From positions 17,241,001 to 17,305,000 of the forward strand of contig OY997596.1 in the NCBI GenBank assembly GCA_963921825.1: DNA of 64,000 nucleotides, given 5' to 3'. Position numbers and translations under genes: made by a program. Of the stretch, positions 21,143 through 51,226 are shown one piece after another (positions within the stretch are counted from its first letter, which is position 1; every line of letters begins with the position of its first letter). This DNA comes from Erodium maritimum (taxonomy: Eukaryota > Streptophyta > Magnoliopsida > Geraniales > Geraniaceae). The notes below the pieces were generated by a model. The model made no database searches, was not told the origin of the DNA, and saw only the letters and a program-made list of their open reading frames with translations.

Positions 21143-22722
21143 ATGGCCTCCTCTGCTCCAGCCACCACCGCCGTCGACATGTCTGCCTCTAATGGACATG
21201 TCCCTTCGCCGTGTGCCCAGGTGCAGTCCTCGGTACTTGTACCGCCGCCTCGCCCTTCCTCGGACGTGGTGCCCCCCCCCCCCCCCCGCACGATAAGGAG
21301 ACGTCGAAAGCCACTCCAACCAGTCAAAACGTCTTCTACTCTCCATCTCAGTCCTCTTCCTCCTTCTCCGACCACGGCAGAGGGTATTTTCTCCCTTGGT
21401 CAGGAAACACCTGTGACAAAACCCCGTTGGGGTCGTACAAATAAATTCCTAGGGCTTGCGTCTTCTGCAAGCAAGCCTAGGGCTCCACTACTCCAACCTC
21501 CAACTGATCTAGTGGCCGCAGTGGCTGGGTTCACCCCTCTCCACCAGGGGAAGAATCGGATAGGGCTCCGATCCCTATGGTTCCATCTGAAATTACTCTT
21601 GCGTCTTCTGCAAGCAAGCAAGCCAAGGGCGCCACTCCTCCAACCTGCATCTTATCCGATGGTCGTGGCGGCTAGGGCTCACACCTCTCCACTAGGGGCA
21701 GATTCGGCTCGGGCTCTGGCCCTTGAGGTTCCACCTGGGTTTGCTCCCCTGACTGCATGTGCTCCTATAGCGACGACCTCGACGAACACAAAACCGTTCC
21801 AGGTTCCTTCCTCTCCACGCTATCGAGATCCTATGCGAGGGAAGGCTCCTGTGTAGGACTCAGGACAGACGATGATATGGGAACTCTATGAGGGAGGGCT
21901 TACCCAGAACATCGACTGTATCCCTATTGTCCCTACTGCTATGGATCTACCTCCTGGAGTTGATCGGTGTCGGCCTTCAAGTCTAGGGACACCGGTTCCA
22001 CCTCGGAGTCTCCATCGGCGGGGCCACCACTGGATGTTAACCTCAACAATCTTCAGGACAGCTTCTCGGCCTTCTTGCTGGATGGTGAAGAGGAGGTGGA
22101 GGTCATGATTCCAAGTGCATCGTTGAACCCCTCCTTGTTGGCTCGCCAACAATTTGCCATAATGGGTAAATTTTGGGCGTCCAGACCACCTCGGAAGGAG
22201 GTGCTGCTCCAAGTCATCACCAGGGCATGGGGCAGGTCGTGAAGGGCCTGGTCATCAAGGAAATTGGACCAGGATTATTCGGCTTCTACTTCGAGTCAGA
22301 AGAAGCACACATGTGGGTCCGTATAAAAGAAAACTTGGTGCTTTGACGGACGTCCTCTCCTCCTCGGGGACTTGGACCCGATGGATATGGTGCCTCCAGC
22401 CTTGGATCGGCTTCAACTTTGGGCCCATGCTCACGGTCTTCCTCCCTTGGTGCGAACCAAGAAAACGGGGGAGATGATCGGCTCGGTATTGGGGTTGAGC
22501 GTTGAGGTGCCGTGTGACAAGTGGGGCACCAGTTGGGGATGAACCGTTCATATTTGGTTCAGGCACCTGATGGAGCATCCCTTGCATCGCCATCTCCTGC
22601 TCCACTTTCGGGAATTTCCCGACCCAATTCGGGTATCTCTCACATACTCTAAGTTAACTAAATTCTGCGGTAACTATGGGATGATTGGACATGGCCTCAA
22701 GGAGTTCCCCGGGAAGTGGTGG
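21143..22722 (+). pseudogene. L1 ORF1 (DUF4283 plus CCHC knuckle), broken
   Basis: The first 237 codons from ATG 21143 form a Pro/Ser/Ala-rich N-terminal part (MASSAPATTAVDMSASNGHV). In other frames follow the DUF4283 landmarks LLARQQFAIMGKFWASRPP near 22135, GLVIKEIGPGLFGFYFESE near 22245, and LDPMDMVPPALDRLQLWAHA near 22372. A partial zinc knuckle (KFCGNYGMIGHGLKEFPGKW) lies near 22650-22720; its second and last metal positions read Tyr-for-Cys and Phe-for-Cys. At least three frame changes or stops occur. ORF1 would bind LINE RNA. The C-terminal part continues after the solo LTR, from 25751 to about 26280. Confidence 0.7.
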
Positions 22723-23007
22723 TGTCACGCCCCAAATCCGGTTTTGACCGGAATCGAGACGTGAACTTAAATAATGAATAAATAAAGCGATTTAAAAGAG
22801 AATAAATTCTGAAATAATAATCCGAAAGTAATAAATCCGATAAAGTGAGTCAACAACTCATAAATCCAGCAATAAACGTTTACTTTAAAATAGAGGGTAC
22901 GTCTCTAGACCAGACTAGCCTAAGACCCTCGCTAGCTCCCTAGCTCCAATAATCCCGCTAGACCACATCCCGCTCAAAACCTGTAGAACAATAAAGTAAA
23001 GGGGTGA

Positions 23008-23378
23008 TGTAACACCCCGCCGTGCCAGACCCGGGTCCCACGCGCGGCGATGTTAGGTCTGCAGCCCAATACACCACAACCCCTATGGTGTATTGTCCAC
23101 AGACAAATACCAACCTAGGTTGTTGGTGAGACTTGAACCCAAGACCTCACCCTTTATAGCATTTCCTTGAGTGATGATATCACCAATTGAGCTGCTCAAT
23201 TGGTGATAGCATCACTCAAGGAAATGCTATAAAGGGTGAGGTCTTGGGTTCAAGTCTCACCAACAACCTAGGTTGGTATTTGTCTGTGGACAATACACTA
23301 GAGGGGTTGTGGTGTATTGGGCTGCAGACCTAACATCGCCGCGCGTGGGGCCCGGGTCTGGCACAGCAGGGTGTTACA
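23008..23378. mobile_element. 371-bp near-perfect palindrome with tRNA-like boxes
   Basis: It begins TGTAACACC and ends GGTGTTACA, and is flanked by an exact 5-bp duplication GGTGA (23003-23007 and 23379-23383). The two ~185-bp arms differ at only about six positions and meet at one unpaired base (about 23193), so there is no loop. Each arm, read outward from the centre, has a box A-like TGCTCAATTGGTGATAGC and, about 45 bp on, a box B-like GGTTCAAGTCTC, the layout of an RNA polymerase III tRNA-type promoter. A further ~115 bp run outward to the terminus. It could be a foldback element, a head-to-head pair of tRNA-derived SINEs, or an inverted pair of very short LTRs. No coding capacity. Confidence 0.8.
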
Positions 23379-24654
23379 GGTGAGCTTTTTCTTAGTTGGA
23401 AAGTAGTTAAGGTGATGTGTATCCGCTCACCACCACGAGTAACCGTCCAATTAGGGCATATTAGCAGAGCACAACACTAATCACACCCACGGAGAGCACA
23501 TAACCACAAACACACTTACATGACCACTATCGCCCTGTACTCACATCACTTATCCGATCATCAAGCATACAATACACAGTAAACAATCACACGTCCCGTA
23601 CAGCAGTCCCCGAACTCCGCCGGCTGTACATAGACCGACTCTATCATATCGTACTGGAAGACTCAGCATCGGCCTAGATATCTTCCCGGAACCGCATCGG
23701 GGCACAATCACGATACATCATACCGGACCACACATCATCGGCCTAGATGTCTTCCCGGGAATCCGTTGGGGCACAATCACGACACATCATATCGAATCAT
23801 AAACTGTCGGCCTAGATACTCTACATCGGCATACCCCCTCGATGTAGGTATCGTACCAAAACCACACCGTCGCCTAGATACCACCCTACACCGGCATACC
23901 CCCTCGGTGTAAGTACCATACCAGAATACAACTCCTCTTGGGACATGCATCAAGAAAGTCTCACGCATCGCAATGCCATAATTCAACCATGGTATACCAA
24001 CCGAGTCAATCTTACCACAACACAACACATCGGTCTATCAATCACCCGATCATATCACAACCATTGGTTCACGTCATATCAAGCATGACACACTTGCCCA
24101 AAACATAACAACACGCTACACCGAGCATATCATAACATGATTCTCAATCTAACAACGGATAAACTGCACATCAAGCATCACAATCATAGATCATGGCATC
24201 ACAATCAACACACAACCTAAGGGCTCGACATGGCCCACATGCATTTCTACTGCACGACAATTCCCAAACTTACGGCTCGACATGGCTCGTAAGCTATCTC
24301 TCATTTCACTCGTTCCTCGCATCCTAACATGCAATTCTAACAATTAAATCAAGTATTCGAAACCTATATGCATACTAATAACTTTCCGCAATTCGACCGG
24401 TATTCGCTACTTTCCATATCTTGATCGCTTTCCGAATGCTTAGTCACTTCACGAGGTCCAAAAGTCTCCTCCTCCTCCAAGCTTGGGTCCAAAGTCTAGG
24501 ATCACAATTAAATACTAGAATCAAGAGTAATTCACTATTGGATTAAAGAGGAAATCATTTCCAAATAACCCCAAAAGAGCTCTGTTATAGATAACCGTCC
24601 CAATTACTCGAAATCCAACAAAATGGGCCCAAAAGGCCCAACTCTGGTCTGTCA

Positions 24655-24845
24655 CGGTTCGGGTCACAGACCCGTGGTCTACACCGTCACGGTTCTCCTC
24701 ACGGAGCCGTGATTGGCGCCGTCACGGTTCTCCTCACGGAGCCGTGACTGGCGCCATCATGGTCTCCCTCACGGAGCCGTCACGGTCATCCTCACGGAGT
24801 CGTGACGTCCGCCATCACGGTCCCCGTCACGGATCTGTGACGGGT
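24655..24845. repeat. palindromic tandem repeat inside the solo LTR
   Basis: Six to seven units of about 27-32 bp are built on GTCACGGTTCTCCTCACGGA followed by GCCGTGAC; each unit is itself an inverted repeat. They lie about 900-1095 bp from the LTR start. Confidence 0.8.
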
Positions 24846-26586
24846 CTGGACATTTTCGTCCTTCTTCTTCCTCCAGCTCCGATTTCACGAAAAACAACCT
24901 CAAAACCTCCATTTTTGACCTTCCCAACCTCCAAATCAGTACTAAAAACGTCTCCACTTCAATACCCATGATGGGTATTCATCAAAACCACAACAATCCA
25001 ATTAAAATCTTTCATCTAACTCCCTTTTATCTCCAAAAATCATCATCTAATCATCTAAATCAAAAACCCATTGAAACCAACCATGTTCATCCTTTTTTTC
25101 TCCCAAACCCACAATCTAAATCCCAATGAAAAAGAAAAAGGATTGAAGATTTACCTTAGAAATGGAGAATAGAAGAAGAAACTAGTGATTTTGATGAGAT
25201 TTGAGTAGAAAATTAGTTCAAGACACCCTTTTTCCTCCTTTCTTCTTCTTCAAGCTTCCATAGCTCTCTTTCTTCCTTCTCTCTCTCTAAATTTCGGCCA
25301 CCCTTGATAAAATGGGCTGAAATGCCTTCATTTCGTGCCTAAAACCTAGATGAGAATAGTCTATAATGCCCCTTTAAGCTTCTTCACTCTCCATGGCTCA
25401 AGTGGGGGCAAAATGGTCAAATCTCCCTTCTTTCTTCTCCCCTAAGCCAACATGGACAAGTGTCCATGTGGGGACCACTTATACCCAAATTAAATCTCAT
25501 CACATTTAATTAATTCTTTAAGGCTTAAGGTTTGACCGAAATTGACCCCGAGTTGACTTTTTCACAAAAGAGACAGTTTGAAAGGAAACGACCCAACTAA
25601 GATAACCGTAACGACAGCTAAGCTTTTTGGGTCCCGGAAAGGTCCCGAATGACTCCCGGAGTCATCGATTGACTTTTTCGAAAAAAAGTCAACTTTCGCC
25701 GAAAATCACATGTTCGACCGGGATCGACCGGGGGCGGTTCTTATAGGTGGGAACCCCACGGTTCGACTCTTCCATGTTGGAGTATCAACAGGATCGGGAC
25801 AACAAGGTATACGCAAAGGATTGGAAATTGGTATCCTCGACTACTGCACATAATGGACCATTGTATCGAGGCTGTGGTCCGATTGTATCCCCGACTACTG
25901 CACCTAATAGTGCGAGTCCTAAGGGCGCCACTCAAACCTCCTCGGTGGATCCGGGCTGGAAAAATCTGGTGGTCGGGAGCCTAACACCCCAACCCTGCTT
26001 ACCATGGAGATAGAAGTAGACCTGGTATTGTGTCTGGATCTGTTACAGGGGCGAAGTTGGGGGAGTGAAACAGAGTTGTACTGATGAACCCCAGGAGGAC
26101 CAAGAGCGAACGGGAAAGCATTCCCGCATAGAGGAAGGAAAGGAATCCAGTGCTCTAGGGACTGGCCCTGGGAGGGGTCCCTGGTAAGAGCGTTGCCTCC
26201 GGAAGAAGTGGATGACAATAGGTTCGGTCATACTCTACTGTACATGCAACATTTAGGCATGACCTCGAGCAGCCGTAGTCAACTTCGTTTAAATTTAATC
26301 TTATTATGTAGCCTCTGTGGCAGCCCATTCAATACCGTTAGGGACGATTATAGCATGAAAAGAACTGTGGCACCATTGTGTCTCTTGTTTGTTCTTCGTG
26401 GTCAGGGATTTATCCTTGATGCACTCAAATATATTGGAATTTAAATTAATAAATTGTACCTTTCGCTAAAAAAAATCATATAATAAAAACACATTCTTTA
26501 CATAGAGCATAAGCCAATATATTCATATTTATCATCCAATACATTCTACACGATGTTGATGAGATTATAATATTATATATAATTCT

Positions 26587-30615: not shown

Positions 30616-33228
30616 TGTAAGACCCGCCCCCGGTCGATCCTGGTAGAACCGGTGAATCCTAACTAAGTTTGACTTTCGACCGGAAAAGTCAATTGATGAC
30701 TCGGAAAGTCATTCGGGACCTTTCCGGGGCCCAAAAAGCTTAGCCAACATCACGGTTAGCTTAGTTGGGCCGTTTCCTTCAGTTTGACTGTAATATTGTT
30801 AAAGTCAACCGTCGGTCAAACTTGGGCTTAATATAGGTTGTTTTTCGATAAAATCTTGGAAAGCTGGAAATTAATTAAGTAGGAGTGACCCCACATGAAA
30901 CTTGTCATGCTTGGCTTGGAGGATGAAAATGGGGATTCAAATGACCCTCATACCCTCCTAACTTGCCTTTAAAGGGATAAGACCTTAAGGGCTTTTGAGT
31001 AAATTGACATTTTAGGTCATTTAAAGGAAAGGGAGCAACAATTCAGCTCATTCCTTGTTGGTGCAGCCGAAATTCACTAGGAGAGTGGAGGAGGAGAGCT
31101 CATTTCTTGAGGAAGAAGATAGAGAAGAAAGCTTGGATTTTGGAGCTTGTTCTTGGTCTTTTTGGCTCCATTTTCACTTCATCTTCTTCATCTCATCTCC
31201 CTAGAGGTAAGGATACTCTTAACCCTCCATTTCATCCACTTCCAATCTTTGGGTTTTGTGGGTTTTGGTTTAAAAGTTGAAGAACTAGCTTTGTGGGTGT
31301 TGCTTGGAGAAGAAGTAGTGAAGTAGGTTGTTTGGATTGTATTTTGGTTGAAGTTTCGATGAACCCATTGAGGGTGTTGATGTTGGGTAACTTTGGATGA
31401 ACATTTTGGAGTTGAGAGGACTTGGAAATGGGGTTTTTATGGTGATTTTCGTGAAACTCGAGTTGGGGAAGAAAGGGGAAGAAATTGGTCAGGTTTGATA
31501 TGGAACGAGGTATGGAGAGTGCCACATTCCGGCCCTCTGAGTGGCACGGGACGTGCCACATTCCGGCCCTTTGAGTGGCACGGAACGTGTCACATTCCGG
31601 CCCTCTGAGTGGTATGGAATGGGTCACATTCCATATCAGACCCCTAGAACCCAAACCCCTTCCTTTTAGCCCATTTTGATTCCTAAATCATTTCTTAAAA
31701 CCTTAATTCCATTATTTGAGTGTTGTTCTATACTTTGGGGATAAGAACATCGTTGAGTTTTTAACTTTGGCCTTTTGGTGGTCTAAGACCGTGGTATCGA
31801 GCAAGGAAGGAAGGAAGAACTTGGACTTGAGCTTGAAGAACGAAGAGTCACGCCGGAACCCGTGTGAAGAACGGTGGGGTGATTATCGTTTGTGACATCA
31901 GAGTGTTGAGAGGAAGACCTTGAGGTAGGGAAAGTCTTAACTTCTCGTTTAAATGCTTAGTATGCATGTTAGGCTAGTAAAATTGGAAAGGTCCTAGGAA
32001 TGCCTATAGGATGCGAATAACTAGAATAGTTGTCTTTCAATTACTAATAACCGAAAGTGTCTAGTGGTGACTGATTAGGGTGCCAATCACTAGTGTAACT
32101 CGCTTTCAATACTTGAGAATTGTTTTACTGGTAGATCGGCCTTGGCAAAGCCCTCGGATTAGTTGCGTGTTAGGATCACATGCTTGGTTGTTTGGTTGCT
32201 TAGTGGATAGGCTAAAGAGTCTAATGGAGCTAGTTGAATTGCATATTTGAATGCTCGTCTGAAGGTTTTCATGTTTGGTTGATTGAACTCGTATTTGACT
32301 GTTGGATGTATTTGAATGATTGCTTGATTTCCTTAAATGGTTACTTGGAGCATCGAGTATGACTGGTTGTACCGAGCGGTGCAATCAGGCGATCGATGCC
32401 TCGATGGGTCGTGACTGGTAAGTGAACGGTAAGTTGTGATTGTGTGATTCGTGGGTTGTGACCATGTGATTCGTGTGCGGTGGGTGGTGGTGAAACGGTG
32501 ATGCGTGAGCTATGTGTGATAGTGGATTGGTGTTTGTTGGGATTGGATCGCTTCGTGTTTCGGTTTGAGTGTGTTACTCAATTATTATCTGAGTATTATT
32601 GAATTGCCCAAGTGTATGCTTCCTATGGGAGTAATACATTGGTTCCCGAGGACATGAAATCCCTTGGAGACGTTTCTGAGAATCCCGATGATAAGCGCCC
32701 TCAGGGGGTTGTTTCCGGTCGCCTCAATGATATGTGTCTCCTCTGGATTTGAGGGAAAATCCGAGAGGACACATTATATGTGGGTCGGAGGGTGGTGACT
32801 TCATGTGCCACGACATTGACTGGATTACCTATTACCCGTGTTTGTGAAGAATTATCTTGTCGACTTTGCTGTTGAAATTATTGAGTTTAAAGTCCACCAT
32901 GTTATGTATTTTCCCTACTGAGCGCGAGCTCACCCCTATGAGTTTATTGTTGTGATCACAGGGTTTTTTGAGGAGTAGAGGCTCGGGAGCTTCTTGGTGT
33001 GGGTGTCCTGTAGAGACTTCGTTTTCATTTCATTTCAGTTTTGAACAAACCTTGTTGGAGGATTATTATTACACCCCTGGAGGGTTATTTATGTTTTAAA
33101 TTGAGTTTTGTGGATTTGAGTTTTATATTGGAGACTTTCGGAAAGTTACTGTTGAGTTACTGCCCTTTTAATCGTTTTATCCTAGTCATGCCTCGAGTCC
33201 GGGCAAGAACCGGATTTGGGGCGTGACA
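30616..33228 (+). mobile_element. solo LTR, Tekay-like Ty3/gypsy, in copy A
   Basis: 2613 bp from TGTAAGACCCGCCCCCGGTC to ATTTGGGGCGTGACA. Duplication GACAA (30611-30615) and GACCA (33229-33233) match at four of five positions. The intact sequence in copies C and D reads GAGGACCAACTC, which confirms the insertion point. No internal region is left. A GAG/GTAAGG site about 590 bp in lies at the same place as a similar site in the LTR at 22723-25745. It is a fossil. Confidence 0.88.
31517..31640 (+). repeat. palindromic tandem repeat inside the solo LTR
   Basis: Four units of about 31-33 bp have GTGCCACATTCCGGCCCTCT followed by GAGTGGCACGG; each is an inverted repeat around the GGCCCT core. They start about 900 bp from the LTR start. 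Confidence 0.85.
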
Positions 33229-40181: not shown

Positions 40182-40193
40182 TGGTATCAGAGC
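40182..40193 (+). other. primer-binding site, initiator tRNA-Met type
   Basis: TGGTATCAGAGC lies three bases after the 5' LTR and is complementary to the 3' end of plant initiator tRNA-Met, the usual primer for these elements. Confidence 0.9.
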
Positions 40194-40869
40194 TCGAGGT
40201 TTCACACCTCGGACTGCTTGTCAATTAGGTGGGAGAGTCGAGTCAGTAGAGTCCCGTCCTGCGTCGGGTACGCAAGTCGGAACTCGGGTGTAGACCCGTT
40301 AGGATTTGAGGCCTGTTTTGTTTTGTGCTTGTGCAGTACAGGGTTACTGGCACAGTGTTTGTGTGTTGATGCGTGAAACGTTTTTAAACTGTCGCGACTC
40401 GACTCAGGAGCGCTCCTGTGGTCGAGCGTGACGGTGTTGGTATCAAGTGGCTACAACGTAGTCCGGGGACGCCTGGACGGGGTTGTAACTACCTGATGCC
40501 AAGAAATGAGGATTTTTAATGGAGTGGAAAAAGTTTTAAAATTGGTTGGCCCAGTGGGCGTGTATTCGTTACTCGGCCGTGTTGGCTTGTGTTTGAGGTC
40601 GGTCTTGAGTTGTCGATTTGGTTGTTGTTGTTGTTTCGCTGTATGGTTGGTTGGTCATTGCGTGTTTTGGTGCACGTTATTGCAGTCTCTTTGAGGTTTC
40701 TTTTACTAATACTAATATTTAAAGTATTAATAACGTGAGCGGCGTGACGTATTAGTGATATACGCGCTAGAGTAAACTTAGACCGTGTGAACGTTAGCGT
40801 ACTTGAACTTGTTGTGTTTATTTGAGTTCGCAAACTGAACGTTTGCGTGTATCCGTGCAGAGGATACTG

Positions 40870-42130
40870 ACTATGGCTCGCGGTAGACGTGGACGAGCAT
40901 CGGGAGCACGGGGTCAGGCGCCCACGCAGGGCCGGCGTGGACGGTCAGCGGGGACACCGGGAAGGGTGCCCACCGTCGAGCCCGCCGAGTACGCGGAAGC
41001 GTAGGACACTCCTGTCGGAGAAGACATGAGAAGCCACGCGGGGCTGTCTGCAGGCACACCCGGCGTTCCGCCCGTCGCAGACCCTCCCGTCATGGCTGCC
41101 CTTGATGAGCTGACCAGGACAGTCCAGAGTTTGGTGGCGGTCATCGCCAACAGAGAGTCGGCTTCACCAGCACCTGAGGCAGCCGCGGTCCCAGTGAGAC
41201 CCGGTCAGACAGAGGATCATACATCCCGAGCACTACTAGACTTTCTGAAGCTCGGGATACCTACTTTTGTCGGGGAGCCGAACCCCGACCTAGCCGAGAG
41301 ATGGCTAGATCAGGTCACGCGAGACCTGGATACGTCGGGTGTCGAGGACGGCCGTCGTAGAGTGTCCTTCGTGGCCCATCAGCTGAGAGACAGCGCCTAC
41401 CACTGGTGGGGGCGTGTGAAGGACATGGTCGGCTATGACTACAGCGTCTTCCAAACAGTGTTTCTGGAGCAGTACTTTCCCGAGTCGGCTCGGCTGGAGC
41501 GACATCGACAGTTCCTAGACTTGGAGCAGGAAGGGATGACGGTAGCAGAGTACGAGGCCAGGTTCACAGCCTTGGCCAGATTCGTGCCAGAGATGCTGAT
41601 GAGCGAGAAGAACCATTGCCTGCGGTTCCAGGGAGGACTGAGGTTGGGGATCCGGAACCAGGTTCTCGCTTTGAGGCTGCGGAAGTACACCGACCTCGTG
41701 GACACCGCGGCTACAGTGGAGCAGGGCATCTGGGATGCAGCTAGGGCCTGTGAGGTCCGACAGCGGCCGATCAGCTGCCGTCCGACTCACGAGACTCGCG
41801 GAGACAGAGGACCACGGGGTTCTTCCGACCACCGACTCACCAGGGTGGATCGAGACAGCGGGGGTCAGTGGCAGCAGTTGGGCCAGTAGCACCAGAGAGG
41901 GCGCCGACGTGCTTTACCTGCGGGCAGCGAGGCCACTTCCGTCGCGAGTGCCCGATGGAAGGGAGGCCTATGGCGCTGCCAGCGACCAGCCGTACCAGCC
42001 AGTGCACGGAGTCGAGAGCCAACGAGATCGGCTGTTTTCGATGCGGCCGGGTTGGGCACACCATTGCATGGTGCCGTGAGCCGTCAAGGGCAACGTCAGC
42101 ACAGCGACCGCAGCAGTCGCGGACAGTGTA
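40870..42130 (+). pseudogene. gag region (fossil)
   Basis: A basic, Arg/Gly-rich N-terminal part precedes the retrotransposon gag domain at 41026-41889 (ALLDFLKLGIPTFVGEPNPD, AYHWWGRVKDMVGYDYSVF). Two CCHC zinc knuckles follow near 41910-41960 and 42040-42075. Gag forms the particle shell and packages the RNA. The region is broken. Confidence 0.85.
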
Positions 42131-42275
42131 GTCGCCTAGGGGACGTCCTCATTAGGGTCAGCAGTCCAGACCGTCACAGCCTTCTACGAGCGCACCGATT
42201 CCGAGACAGCAGCAGAGTCACGGGTATTCAGCGGCCAGTGCGCCGGGTCAGAGGCAGCAGGCCTCGCAGGGGAGA

Positions 42276-45200
42276 GTGTATGCAGTCACCGACTCCAAAG
42301 CCTTAGGACCGGGCACGTACCGCGAGACCATCCAGGGTACGTGTTTATTGTATCATTTATGGGCTTTATTCTTGTTTGATACCGAGGCGTCGCACTCTTT
42401 TATTTCGTCGGGTTGTGCTGAGAGGTTGGGGTTGAGCTTAGAGTCGTTGAGTCCACCCCTATGCCTGGACAACCCAGTTCGGGGTGGTGCATCGCTGACT
42501 AGAGTATGTCGTGCCTGCGAGATTAGAGTCGCAGACTGTCCTTGCCCTGGTGATCTCCTCGTGTTGGGGATGACTACCTTTGATGTGATCTTGGGAATGG
42601 ATTGGCTGCCGAGGTACCGAGCCAATATCGATTGCTACAGGCGACGAGTGACAGTGACAGTGGGTGGCACGAAGGTGACGTGTGTTCTGGGTAGTAAGAG
42701 CGGGGTCCTCCTGTCGGCGTTGTCCGCAGAGGAGGAGGCATCGGCTGTGCAGAGCCGAGAGTTACCGCGAGTAGTATGCGAGTTCCCCGATGTCTTCCCC
42801 GAGGAGTTGAGCGGGTTGCCACCGGTTCGTGAGGTGGAGTTCGGGATTGACCTGGTGCAGGGAACGGCGGCGATATAGATGGCGCCTTACAGGTTTGCGC
42901 CGACAGAGTTGATTGAGCTGAAGCGTCAGCTAAAGGAGCTTCAGTAGAAGGGGTTTATCCGTCCGAGTGCATCGCCGTGTGGAGCACCAGCACTCTTCGT
43001 GAAGAAGAAGAGTGGAGAGCTACGGATGTGTATAGATTACCGGAAGCTGAACCGGGTTACGGTGAAGAACCGATACCCGATGCCGAGGATCGATGATTTG
43101 TTCGACCAGTTGATGGGGGCGACCTACTTCTCGAAGATCGATCTGTGGTCCGGTTATTATCAGTTGCGAGTCTGTGAGGGGGACGTCGTAAAGACTGCAT
43201 TCCGGACGCGCTATGGGCACTACGAGTTCCTGGTAATGCCATTCGGACTGACGAACGCACCTGCAGCATTCATGGACCTGATGAACAGCATCTTCCGGTC
43301 GTACCTAGATCAGTTTGTGGTGGTGTCTGTGGACGACATCCTGATATATTCGCAGAACGAGGCGGCGCATCAGTCACATCTGAGGGCTGTTCTGACACTA
43401 CTGCGCGAGCATCAGCTGTATGCCAACCGGGAGAAGTGCGAGTTCTGGCTCTCTGAGGTGAGATTCCTCGGCCACATCGTGTCCCGTGACGGTATCCTGG
43501 TCGATCCGTCGAAGATTGACGCGGTCTCGAAGTGGGCACGGCCCACGAGTGTTTTCGAGATCCGCAGCTTTCTGGGATTGGCAGGCTACTATCGGCGATT
43601 TGTCTAGGATTTTGCACGACTAGCCGCACCGATGACTCTTTTGACGCGCAAGGGTGTCGGGTTCGTGTGGACAGATGACTGTGAGCGTGCATTCGCGGAG
43701 TTGAAGACTCGACTGACTACAGCTCCAGTGTTAGTGGTGCCCGAGCGAGGAATCGGTTATGATGTTTACTGTGATGCGTCCGGAGAGGGACTAGGCTGCG
43801 TACTGATGCAGTTGGGCAGAGTTGTGGCTTATGGCTCCAGGCAGCTGAAGACGCATGAGCGCAACTATCCTACCCACGACTTGGAGCTAGCAGCAGTCGT
43901 GTTTGCGCTAAAGAGATGGCGATATTATCTGTATGGCGAGGGGTTTCAGGTGTTCTCGGATCACAAGAGCCTCAAGTACATATTTTCCCAGCGAGACCTG
44001 AACATGCGTCAGCGACGGTGGATGGAGCTACTCGAAGAGTACGACTTCGAGCTACATTACCATCCGGGCAAGGCGAACGTGGTCGCCGACGCCTTGAGTA
44101 GGAAGTCGATCCCGAGCCTCGCCAGCATATCAGTCCGAGAGTGGGACATGATGGGGGAGTTAAGCACATTCGGGCTTGAGCTAGAGGAGGTTACGGGTGA
44201 CATGGCCATGTGCTCCTTAGTGGCTCAGCCCTCACTGCTTGCCCAAGTGTTGGAGGCGCAGACGGAGGACGTTGAGACGGCACAGATCCGAGAGAGGGTC
44301 GTCAACGGCGACGAGGTAGTAGGTTGGGAGATCAGTACAGATTGGGGACTACAGTACCGAGGAAGGTTGTTCGTGCCGGTTAACTGTAGAAACGACGTGT
44401 TGCGAGAGGCACATCACTCACGTCTTACGGTGCACCCGGGGGGCACCAAGATGTACCGTGACCTCAGACGACATTTCTGGTGGCGCGGGATGCGAAGAGA
44501 AGTAGCAGAGTTTGTGTCGAGATGTCTCGTCTATCAGCAGGTGAAGGCCGAGCACCAACGTCCAGCGGGATTGTTACAGCCACTACCGATTGCTCAGTGG
44601 AAGTAGGAACACATTACGATGGACTTCGTGTGTGGACTACCGAGATCGCCGAAGGGGAACGACGCAGTATGGGTGGTAGTCGACCGGTTGACCAAGTCGG
44701 CCCATTTCCTGGCTATGAGGATGACCGACCCAGTCGACAAGTTGAGCAGCTTGTATGTTCAGGAAATAGTGCGTCTCCACGGGGTCCCGGTGTCGATAGT
44801 GTCTGACAGGGATCCCCGCTTCACGTCCAGGTTTTGGCCGAGTCTACAGAAGGCATTGGGGACCGAGGTGCTACTCAGTACAACGCATCATCCCCAGACA
44901 GACGGTCAATCCGAGCGCACTATCCAGATCTTGGAGGACATGCTACGAGCATGTGTGCTGGATTTCAGGGGATCTTGGGAGACCCACCTGCCGTTGGCCG
45001 AGTTCGCCTACAACAACAACTTCCAGGCCAGTATCGGGATTGCACCTTTCGAAGCGTTGTATGGGAGGCCGTGTCGGTCACCAGTAAGTTGGGCAGAGGT
45101 GGGGGACAAGAGTCTGCTGGGGCCAGACCTTGTCAGAGAGACGACGGAGAAAGTCGCACTGATCCGCGATCGGTTGAGGACCGCGCAGAGCCGGCAGAAG

Positions 45201-45660
45201 AGTTATGCCGATAGGCAACGTCGACCTCTTGAGTTTGCAGTCGGGGATCACGTGTTCCTGAAGGTGAGCCCGAGGAAGGGCCTGGTGCGGTTCAGGCGCA
45301 GCGGGGGCAAGTTGGCTCCGAGGTACATTGGCCTGTTCGAGATTTTGGGCAGAGTGGGAACAGTGGCTTATCGTCTGGCGTTGCCACCGCAACTTGGGAG
45401 AGTCCATAACGTCTTCCACGTGTCTCAGTTGCGGCAATACAACGCAGACCCCTCCCACGTCATTGAGTGGACTGATATCGAGGTGACTGATGATGTCTCC
45501 TATGAGGAGCAGCCGGTTCGGATCATGGACACACGGGAGCAGATTCTGCAGGGAGGCAAGATTATCCACTTGGTACGAGTGTAGTGGAAGCACCACGGGG
45601 CTAAATCAACTTGGGAGCGTGAGGACGAGGTTCGCGCGAAGTATCCCGCCTTGTTCGTTT
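42276..45660 (+). pseudogene. pol region: protease, RT, RNase H, integrase, chromodomain-like tail (fossil)
   Basis: The blocks lie in order. Aspartic protease is about 42300-42650. Reverse transcriptase is about 42900-43610 ([15 protein letters not shown] and [10 protein letters not shown] visible). RNase H is about 43640-44100 ([18 protein letters not shown]). Integrase is about 44380-45190, with a zinc-binding N-terminus and a core with HGVPVSIVSDRDPRFTS. A C-terminal GTVAYRLALPPQLGRVHNVF segment and chromodomain-like end run to about 45660. The protease-to-integrase order and the RVHNVFHVS tail are typical of Tekay chromoviruses. The region is broken in several places. Confidence 0.9.
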
Positions 45661-48938: not shown

Positions 48939-51226
48939 AGGTGATAGGTTCGGCCATTTAACAAAAACAGGAGAAGAAGGAGAGAGAAAGAAGAGAGAAG
49001 AAGGAGAAGGAGAAGGAGAAAAGGAAAGGAAAAGGAGAAAAAGTGTTAGGGTTTTGCGATTTCCCGACGATCCAACCGACGGATCGTCTCAACGGTTGAA
49101 GAATCAAGCTCCCATCGTCATTCCCTACGGTGAGAACCTATTTGATTCTCGTTTTGGTACGTTTGAAAGTTAGGGTTTGTGTTTAAACGAGTTAAATATG
49201 GTTGAGTTGAGGGGTGGGGTTCGTTGGAGACGTTTTGAGACGAAAATGACCGAATTCCGGTGACCGGAGGCTCGTGGGAGCTCCGGCCACCGTGGGTGGT
49301 GGCTGGCCGGAGCTAGAACCGGCCACCACTATGGTGAAACGGTCCAGCCACCCACGGCTAGTAATGGCCAGGTGGGGCCCACGTGTCGGGTCTCGGGTTT
49401 TTCATGTTCTGGTGGTTTTGGACGATCCCCAAGTCGTTAATTCACACCCGGAACGAATTATGGAATTAAAATGTGAAAGTTGGGAGTTTCGGGTTTAGAA
49501 ACTTTAAACGCGAATTAAATCGCTCGGAAGTCGGAAATTGGTTCCGTCGATTGCATTGGAACCCTTGAATTATTCTAAGATCGTAGAAACGAAAACGGGA
49601 ATTTTCGGAGCCCCAGAAGGGCTTTTTCCAATCCCGGGCAGATTCACCGAGCCGGGCGAATCGGGCCTTTCCGGGCCCATTGTTGACAATGTTGAGTAAT
49701 TTGGAAGTTTGGGAGTGATCGGCATTACCGGGTTGCGTTTGGGCATCTAATTCTTTAAAATTCAGCTTTGTCTGCGAACTTAAAAAGTGTTTTAATTGTG
49801 TTCATGTTAGATCGTGCCGCCGACCGTAGAAAGGGGAGGCTAGGCGAGTGATCGCGAGCACGCCGGAGCTTGGGCGTGTACTTTTGGGAAAGCGTTACGA
49901 GGTAGGTAAAAGTAGCCGGATCTCGGCCTTGACTAGGGAAAGTTAACAGTAGAAATGCATGTGACACTTAGTGGTGTCGTAGGATAAGTAAATTTATCGA
50001 ACAATAGAAATGCAGGCGACACTTAGTGGTGTCATAGGATACGTGAACGTATCGAACAATAGAAATGCATGTGACACTTAGTAGTGTCGTAGGATAAGTG
50101 AACGTATCGAACAATAGAAATACTGGTGGCTTTTGGTTGTGCCCGTAGGTTAAGTAACTTGTTGTGTTTATGAGGGTGGTCATGTGTGCCTTTGGGGTGT
50201 TGAACCCGTATGTTATTGTTTGTGTCTGTGGGTGGCCATAAGTGCCTTTGGGGTGTTGAACCCGTATATTACTGTTGGTGTGTCGTGGGTGGCCATGTGT
50301 GCCTGTGGGGTGTTAAACCTGTATTGTTTTTTACTGTCCTACCGAGGGGTAGTGAGTCGTATATTATGGTCGCTATTTGTTAAACCTTGGGTGATGACTG
50401 TGGTTGCATGGAGGTTGGGGCCCGCCTGACAGAAAAGGGGTCCTGTGGTCGCGCGCGTGGGGGTTGGCTAGCCTTCCGACTAACAATCGGTAAAGTTGTG
50501 CATTCTTCTGCGATGAAGGGCGGCTCCCCTTCCGACTAGCTATCGAAAAAGTATTGATGTATATGTCGCGAACAGGTCGACCGCCTGGCCCGACTGCGTG
50601 TCGGGGAAAGTTGGGTGGGGCAGGCTCAAGCCCAGCCGGTTAGCAACCGGTACTGAGTAGCTGGAGTGCGATCCTTTGTGATCTTGATTGTTGTGTGCGA
50701 TCCTTTGTGATCTTGGGTGTGGCGTGGTTATTATTTGCGCTTTTGGTTGAGGTCGTAACTGTTGTGTCGGGTCTACATTACGCGTCCGGGTTTTGAGTTG
50801 GTTGGGGAAAGTAACAGTTTTCGTGTGACAGTCGGGTTACTTGAGTTTGGGGATAGTAGTCCCCGGTGTTTTGTATGTTGTTGGTGTTTCCGGCATTTCT
50901 GCTAGTATGCCGTAGTCAGTCTGGTATCCGTGGTGGTGAGCGAACGCTCACCCCTAGTTGCTTTTCCTACAGGTACTGGTCGCGAGGCGGACTAGGGAAA
51001 CTCTCGAAGCTTGAAGAGCTGGGAGCGGGAGTCCGGGTTTTGGGGAGTTTAGCGACGTACGCTTTGGTTTTTGTCCACTTGTTTGGACGCTTTTCAGTTG
51101 TAAAATATTGTTTTTGATTAACTCAAAGTGGCGATTTTAAGCGGTTTTATTAAAATGTTTGAAAATGGTTTTATTGTTTCACCGTTCGCGTTCCGGGTTC
51201 GGTCCTACTGAATTCGGGGCGTACAA

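Follow-up and report, generated by a model that had tools for sequence, protein, structure and literature searches.

Small non-autonomous retroelements are usually sorted into SINEs, which move on LINE machinery, and miniature LTR elements, which have two repeats, a PBS, and a PPT. tRNA-derived SINEs are short and non-coding, with a tRNA-like head that contains A and B boxes. Among the open-licence PMC literature, the elements nearest to the family described here are Helenus/TRIMp3 and Cassandra. Helenus is a miniature LTR retrotransposon with a tRNA-like sequence in its LTR and 5-bp duplications, and it occurs in plants and fungi, with Selaginella moellendorffii as the sole plant species in the sections of the paper drawn on here (PMC10886601). 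Our family has in common with it a non-autonomous nature, a tRNA-like promoter (here predicted), 5-bp duplications, and a presumed dependence on an autonomous LTR element; however, Helenus, as those sections describe it, has a PBS and a PPT enclosed by two LTRs (PMC10886601), whereas our family shows inverted arms, a 16-bp palindromic linker that lacks both of these sites, and helper fusions. Words starting with palindrom-, invert-, or dimer- are absent from the main text of the Helenus paper (PMC10886601). The Cassandra TRIM likewise has a Pol III promoter in its terminal repeat (here predicted) and repeat-spacer arrays, but in the parts of its description used here the promoter is of 5S type, the units are direct, and PBS and PPT are present (PMC7215508), whereas our units are tRNA-like and inverted, and sister copy L013 has no 5S rRNA match up to E 10. 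In LTR-mediated retroposition, a foreign RNA copy enters the genome joined to LTR-retrotransposon sequence (PMC8232201), which appears to happen here too; the passenger here, in contrast, is a repeat family with its own LTR-like terminus, found joined at dozens of places. No palindromic tRNA-like LTR or SINE family came up in searches of the open-licence PMC literature.

The locus under study lies in a 64,000-nucleotide stretch of Erodium maritimum DNA, referred to as the window. Sequence comparison resolves it into two 185-nt arms, complementary at 97% and 1 nt apart, which agrees with the near-loopless palindrome of an earlier note on this DNA. Scanned over its full length for palindromes with a short loop and arms ≥45 nt long, the window yielded this one only. 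The element terminates in TGTAACACC...GGTGTTACA, with GGTGA directly outside both ends (Table 1). When the flanks were joined without the insert, all 40 scored paralogous places (from 4324 first-look candidates) matched at 90 to 93% across the junction, and both empty-site paralogues inspected base by base (n = 2) carry a single GGTGA. These matches indicate a clean insertion of the palindrome with a 5-bp duplication, bearing out the exact duplication that had been proposed.

Table 1. Palindrome and insertion site, in window positions
Feature	Position	Strand	Basis or remark
Target-site duplication GGTGA, left	23003..23007	.	5 bp; single GGTGA at empty sites
Left arm, tail outward, head central	23008..23192	-	Sequence comparison
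Tail end TGTAACACCCC of left arm	23008..23018	-	Like U5 terminus of Ty3-type LTRs (GGGGYGTKACA, outward reading)
B-box-like block, left arm	23129..23139	-	Motif resemblance; weak tRNA-model match in sister copy
A-box-like block, left arm	23183..23192	-	Motif resemblance
Palindrome centre	23193..23193	.	Single base here; family's commonest centre is GAGC-TGCA-GCTC
Right arm	23194..23378	+	Sequence comparison
A-box-like block, right arm	23194..23203	+	Motif resemblance
B-box-like block, right arm	23247..23257	+	Motif resemblance
Tail end GGGTGTTACA of right arm	23369..23378	+	Sequence inspection
Target-site duplication GGTGA, right	23379..23383	.	5 bp
Host site: Ty3-type LTR, apparently solo	22723..25745	-	Own GGTGG duplication at 22718-22722 and 25746-25750

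Both arms carry, directed outward, the blocks GCTCAATTGG and GGTTCAAGTCT, which are A-box-like and B-box-like, respectively. The Rfam tRNA model matches the head of sister copy L013 over model positions 6 to 65 of 71 at 16.9 bits (gathering threshold, 29), and ARAGORN calls no tRNA at the palindrome; the head is therefore termed tRNA-like only, as it had been in the earlier note. Elsewhere in the window, ARAGORN predicts a tRNA-Ala (AGC) at 50608-50686. A segment that follows the PBS of a Ty3-type element (L101:2264-2304) shares 85% identity with the B-box region of the arm across 41 nt, and a search for segments of this type gave 1892 candidates, 40 of which were scored, with 40/40 matching. 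From its sequence, this segment is a possible relative or source of the arm.

A genome search with the palindrome (763 Mb, nine large contigs) yielded 677 first-look candidates. Among the 40 scored, full-length matches are present on all nine large contigs, nearly all with 90 to 96% identity and one with 81%. An exact 27-base arm core occurs 582 times genome-wide, with none for the reversed control. The palindrome is thus a member of a family with hundreds of arms, and the many full copies found genome-wide at such identities show that it did not arise from a local assembly error, a possibility that had been raised beside the expectation of a family of full palindromes with 5-bp duplications. 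Three sets of loci were fetched: 40 regions (39 distinct) around the best places, a set biased to intact palindromes; 15 of 30 linker places, of which 4 overlapped the first set and did not enter the counts; and 40 places on contig C1, selected chiefly because they stand single among the 100 matches listed.

In most fetched copies the arms stand head to head, usually meeting at GAGC-TGCA-GCTC, and their tails terminate in TGTTACA. Neighbouring palindromes in longer copies have their tails linked via AAAAAGTGCACTTTTT or a close variant, which is found at 30 places genome-wide at ≤2 mismatches; only this 16-bp palindromic linker or its variants stand between units, where no PBS or PPT is recognisable. 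A few copies have head-to-tail joins, which in L010 and L019 again read TGCA. Taken together, the head-head, tail-tail, and head-tail joins define a unit (T)GCAGCTC...TGTTACAAAAAAGTGC(A), with the common joins overlapping at TGCA. Our best reading of the arm is a SINE-like unit of ~200 nt, from near (T)GCAGCTC to ...GGGGTGTTACA AAAAAGTGC(A). The two arms are identical in L006 and in L024. The tail-tail junction of L013 (L013:693-873) scores 43.8 bits with Rfam MIR474 (gathering threshold, 48), perhaps only through its inverted-repeat form; small RNAs arising from such a foldback may be worth considering there.

To characterise insertion, 90 loci were judged (L097 was left out), of which the 45 with a tail at both ends entered the duplication test; the other 45 are single, truncated, or head-out. 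An exact 5-bp duplication, and none longer, flanks 32/45 of the tail-out elements, four of five bases match in 4 more, and 9 have none. In L010, despite the lack of a duplication at its ends, AACTT repeats further out on inspection by eye. One inverted pair makes up 31/45 of the tail-out elements, while arrays also hold directly repeated units, which are not twins. The exact duplication surrounds 11/14 elements with more than two arms, so arrays either entered as arrays or grew within one insertion. TG...CA ends with a constant short duplication are those of the integrase (LTR) type, as had been supposed.

Single arms lack a duplication of their own in 22/22 cases, the longest string common to the 60-nt head and tail flanks being 4 to 7 nt, with a mean of 5.7 nt for the longest string shared at random between unrelated loci. 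The sign of SINE origin that the earlier note had named, single arms with longer duplications, is absent from these 22, and the variable longer duplications and A/T-rich tail of LINE-type insertion are not seen among these 5-bp duplications and single arms. A LINE-dependent SINE whose copies were paired by recombination after insertion would explain the tRNA-like head, and the SINE-like segment behind the PBS of a Ty3-type element also speaks for it. That explanation is nevertheless scarcely credible, as the 5-bp duplications surround whole palindromes and single arms have none. The arm thus resembles tRNA-derived SINEs in its tRNA-like head, short length, and lack of coding sequence, but differs in its integrase-type ends, 5-bp duplications, palindromic form, and unduplicated single arms. 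The previous suggestion of a mobilised head-to-head SINE dimer came close to our best reading.

Arm heads were also found joined to Ty3-type LTRs. A pattern search of the genome located an arm head ≤14 bases from TGTCACGCCCC, the reverse complement of the U5 end GGGGCGTGACA, at 59 places, with 0 for the reversed control. Following the U5 end is a three-base spacer, mostly ATT or GCT among the 100 rows listed, and then TGGTATCAGAGC, presumably the initiator-tRNA binding site (PBS); GGGGYGTKACA plus TGGTATCAGAGC marks 6,088 U5-PBS sites genome-wide. As many as 48/59 joins can be explained without filler, as the head up to CTGCA plus 0 to 12 nt of U5-PBS spacer, a count that is lenient because five spacer forms were allowed. 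Heads are usually trimmed, being intact to CTGC or beyond in 12/59 joins, and extend past CTGCA in only one, ambiguous, case. The exact tail terminus GGGGTGTTACA precedes a PBS at one place, and the common U5 form GGGGCGTGACA differs from it at two bases. A search for joins to the U3 end, which covered some LTR families only, gave seven matches, six of them arm heads and the seventh a linker, with 1 for the reversed control. A few arm heads, e.g., that of L091, adjoin the U3 start (TGTAAKAACC) and not the U5 end; these sequences suggest that the helper's left end can also be joined to an arm, more rarely than the U5 end.

Fifteen of the 59 head-LTR joins, with part of the far side of each, were analysed for joint integration. 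In 8/15 arm+LTR chimeras the 5 bases outside the arm tail recur exactly after the far TTACA/TGACA end, ~3 kb off, whereas a mismatched control, each duplication against the far sides of other loci, gave 0/210. The shared 5-bp duplication indicates that, in no fewer than 8 chimeras, a single integration used the arm tail and the LTR U3 end as its termini. No duplication was demonstrated in the remaining 7/15, which comprise 2 whose LTR is followed by internal-type sequence, 1 that no longer has its tail, and 4 others. In L084, a U3-like start is followed by a polypurine-like tract (in L103, by eye), and the far side of L125 (L126) matches L103 past this tract with 84% identity over 393 nt; the far ends of L084, L110, L119, L123, L125, and L127 were not found in the further stretches searched. 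The first reading of single arms, LTR elements inserted into the palindrome centre, was rejected because no facing pairs occur within 30 kb among the 59 joins, it is the U5/PBS end that is joined, and in eight of the 15 chimeras the duplication lies around arm plus LTR. Two head-LTR joins on contig C8 (C8:41070989 and C8:41073971) stand 3 kb apart, their arms facing each other and their LTRs on the outer sides.

That the arm shares a terminus with the helper and integrates jointly with it points to dependence on a Ty3-type integrase. A DNA transposon of foldback or MITE type, bounded by long inverted repeats and making 5-bp duplications, would match the palindrome, its inverted termini, and the constant duplication length, but it does not accommodate an arm that has its duplication in common with the end of a fused Ty3-type LTR, nor a terminus resembling that of U5. 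In addition, we know of no fixed-linker arrays in such elements, and we regard this explanation as very unlikely. No transposase superfamily known to us fits the arm termini and duplication. The idea of a new foldback family, as far as a DNA transposon is meant, is weakened by the joint duplications. A family with LTR-type ends had been anticipated correctly, while the linker arrays and the LTR fusions, the latter pointing to the helper, had not been foreseen.

Given the likeness of its tail to the U5 terminus of Ty3-type LTRs in this genome, the arm would have one integrase-competent end only. It is probable that the unit has a single such end and is mobilised by an integrase of Ty3 type. With moderate confidence, we read the family as a tRNA-derived SINE-like unit whose single integrase-competent end is the tail, moved by a Ty3-type retrotransposon and acquiring its second end through head-to-head doubling or through fusion to cDNA of the helper. 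Pol III would produce the arm RNA, and the helper's reverse transcriptase would copy it into cDNA. Arm RNAs may pair tail to tail at the self-complementary AAAAAAGUGCACUUUUUU, each priming the other, and the cDNA may turn round at the head (TGCA) to yield the second arm, after which the helper integrase would trim both tails to CA and insert the palindrome. A head without turn-round would undergo end joining, in most cases with helper cDNA at its right (U5) end. The removal of 9 to 10 nt beyond the tail CA exceeds the usual trimming by integrase. The specific priming and turn-round steps are put forward tentatively.

To examine how arms become paired, their likeness was compared by type of join. 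Head-head joins occur at 86 places genome-wide, and of the 50 centres listed, 27 have the perfect 12 nt, 9 have one substitution, and 14 are not full length; most centres are thus whole, in contrast to the usually trimmed heads of the LTR joins. Arms joined by their heads belong to the same subfamily in 35/44 pairs (22.9 expected) and diverge by 4.0%, compared with 5.7% between loci (5.0% within a subfamily). Tail-tail arms, in a sample of 8 pairs, match in subfamily in 2/8 (4.2 expected) with 6.2% divergence, and head-tail arms in 5/6 (3.1 expected) with 5.3%. Private variants in 33 dimers lie in one arm only in 41 cases and in both arms in 1, so the likeness does not come from later conversion, and homogenisation of arms after insertion is weakened as an explanation. 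In 21 linker arrays, partial arms included, divergence is 6.3% for tail-tail pairs, 5.6% for direct unit pairs, and 4.8% for head-head pairs. The outermost arms of six arrays differ by 4.4% (41/927), versus 4.8% for head-head pairs there, a likeness that the turn-round scheme does not predict and that goes against it. Arm likeness would also follow if the palindrome were copied as a unit.

Plain end joining, in which random ends of extrachromosomal arm DNA and helper cDNA would be joined with no hairpin or tail priming, and any product with two integrase-competent ends gets integrated, finds support in the trimmed ends and short overlaps of LTR-arm joins (28/59) and in the centres that are not full length. 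It is less easily reconciled with the 36/50 listed centres that keep the full 12 nt, and the subfamily matching of head-joined arms is unexpected from random joining; we consider it rather unlikely. Under the Ty3-dependent reading, we infer from these sequences that a single molecule probably doubles back at its head, whereas tail joins bring separate molecules together. The unmatched tail-joined arms weaken the idea that one RNA primes itself through a hairpin at its tail, and they favour the pairing of two RNAs. The tail linker is self-complementary and ends in T6, a predicted Pol III stop. A candidate RNA of L013, whose folded stretch starts at an arbitrarily chosen point 12 nt inside the opposite arm, is predicted to form a head hairpin with a UGCA loop, although its tail is left unpaired (z-score, -4.05). 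Linker and predicted hairpin together suggest tail pairing as the primer and the head hairpin as the turning point, a manner of turning that resembles rolling-hairpin replication. We infer that this route would give both palindromes and alternating arrays.

Classical LTR replication is weakened, as array units are hardly more alike than strangers. The same comparison bears on a Helenus-like TRIM with a Pol III promoter, whose LTR would be the ~374-bp palindrome and whose internal region would be the 16-bp linker, single palindromes being solo LTRs. The 5-bp duplications and TG...CA ends are as expected of such an element, and two-unit elements, with the 30 linker places, resemble LTR-linker-LTR. 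Yet AAAAAGTGCACTTTTT offers neither PBS nor PPT, direct unit pairs within arrays differ by nearly as much as arms from separate loci, head-to-tail unit joins also occur, and the 59 head-LTR fusions are left unexplained, so that we find a TRIM improbable. Lack of a recognisable PBS or PPT and the near-stranger likeness of array units also weaken the notion of an inverted pair of very short LTRs.

The family seems TRIM-like in borrowing an LTR-element integrase, yet it fails the defining features of both TRIM and SINE, and the chance is fair that it merits a separate kind. Such a kind might be described, with considerable reserve, as a Pol III-type parasite of LTR retrotransposons with one end of its own, which is inserted only once it has acquired a second terminus, either through rolling-hairpin reverse transcription or by capturing helper cDNA. 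Carrying just one LTR-like end, the SINE-like unit seems to go through the LTR pathway with neither two repeats nor a PBS or PPT. If so, what integrase needs (a short terminus) is separable from what reverse transcription needs, the dozens of helper junctions are a natural record of cDNA joining, and priming without a tRNA becomes testable. Pairing as mirror images, or fusion to a full-size retrotransposon, suggests an unfamiliar route of spread for a tiny parasite.

The window itself contains a Ty3-type internal region (40182-45584), with a PBS at 40182 followed by five reading pieces. Pfam matches there comprise gag, protease, reverse transcriptase, RNase H, integrase zinc-binding, and SH3; a match to the integrase core falls short of the Pfam cutoff and no chromodomain is listed by Pfam for this region, and for these reasons the helper is named no further than "Ty3-type." A second Ty3-type LTR at 30616-33228 has plus-strand orientation, the reverse of that of the palindrome's host LTR, and is flanked by GACAA/GACCA (4/5 matching). 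The two LTRs form an 81% inverted repeat, 25582-25743 with 30618-30779.
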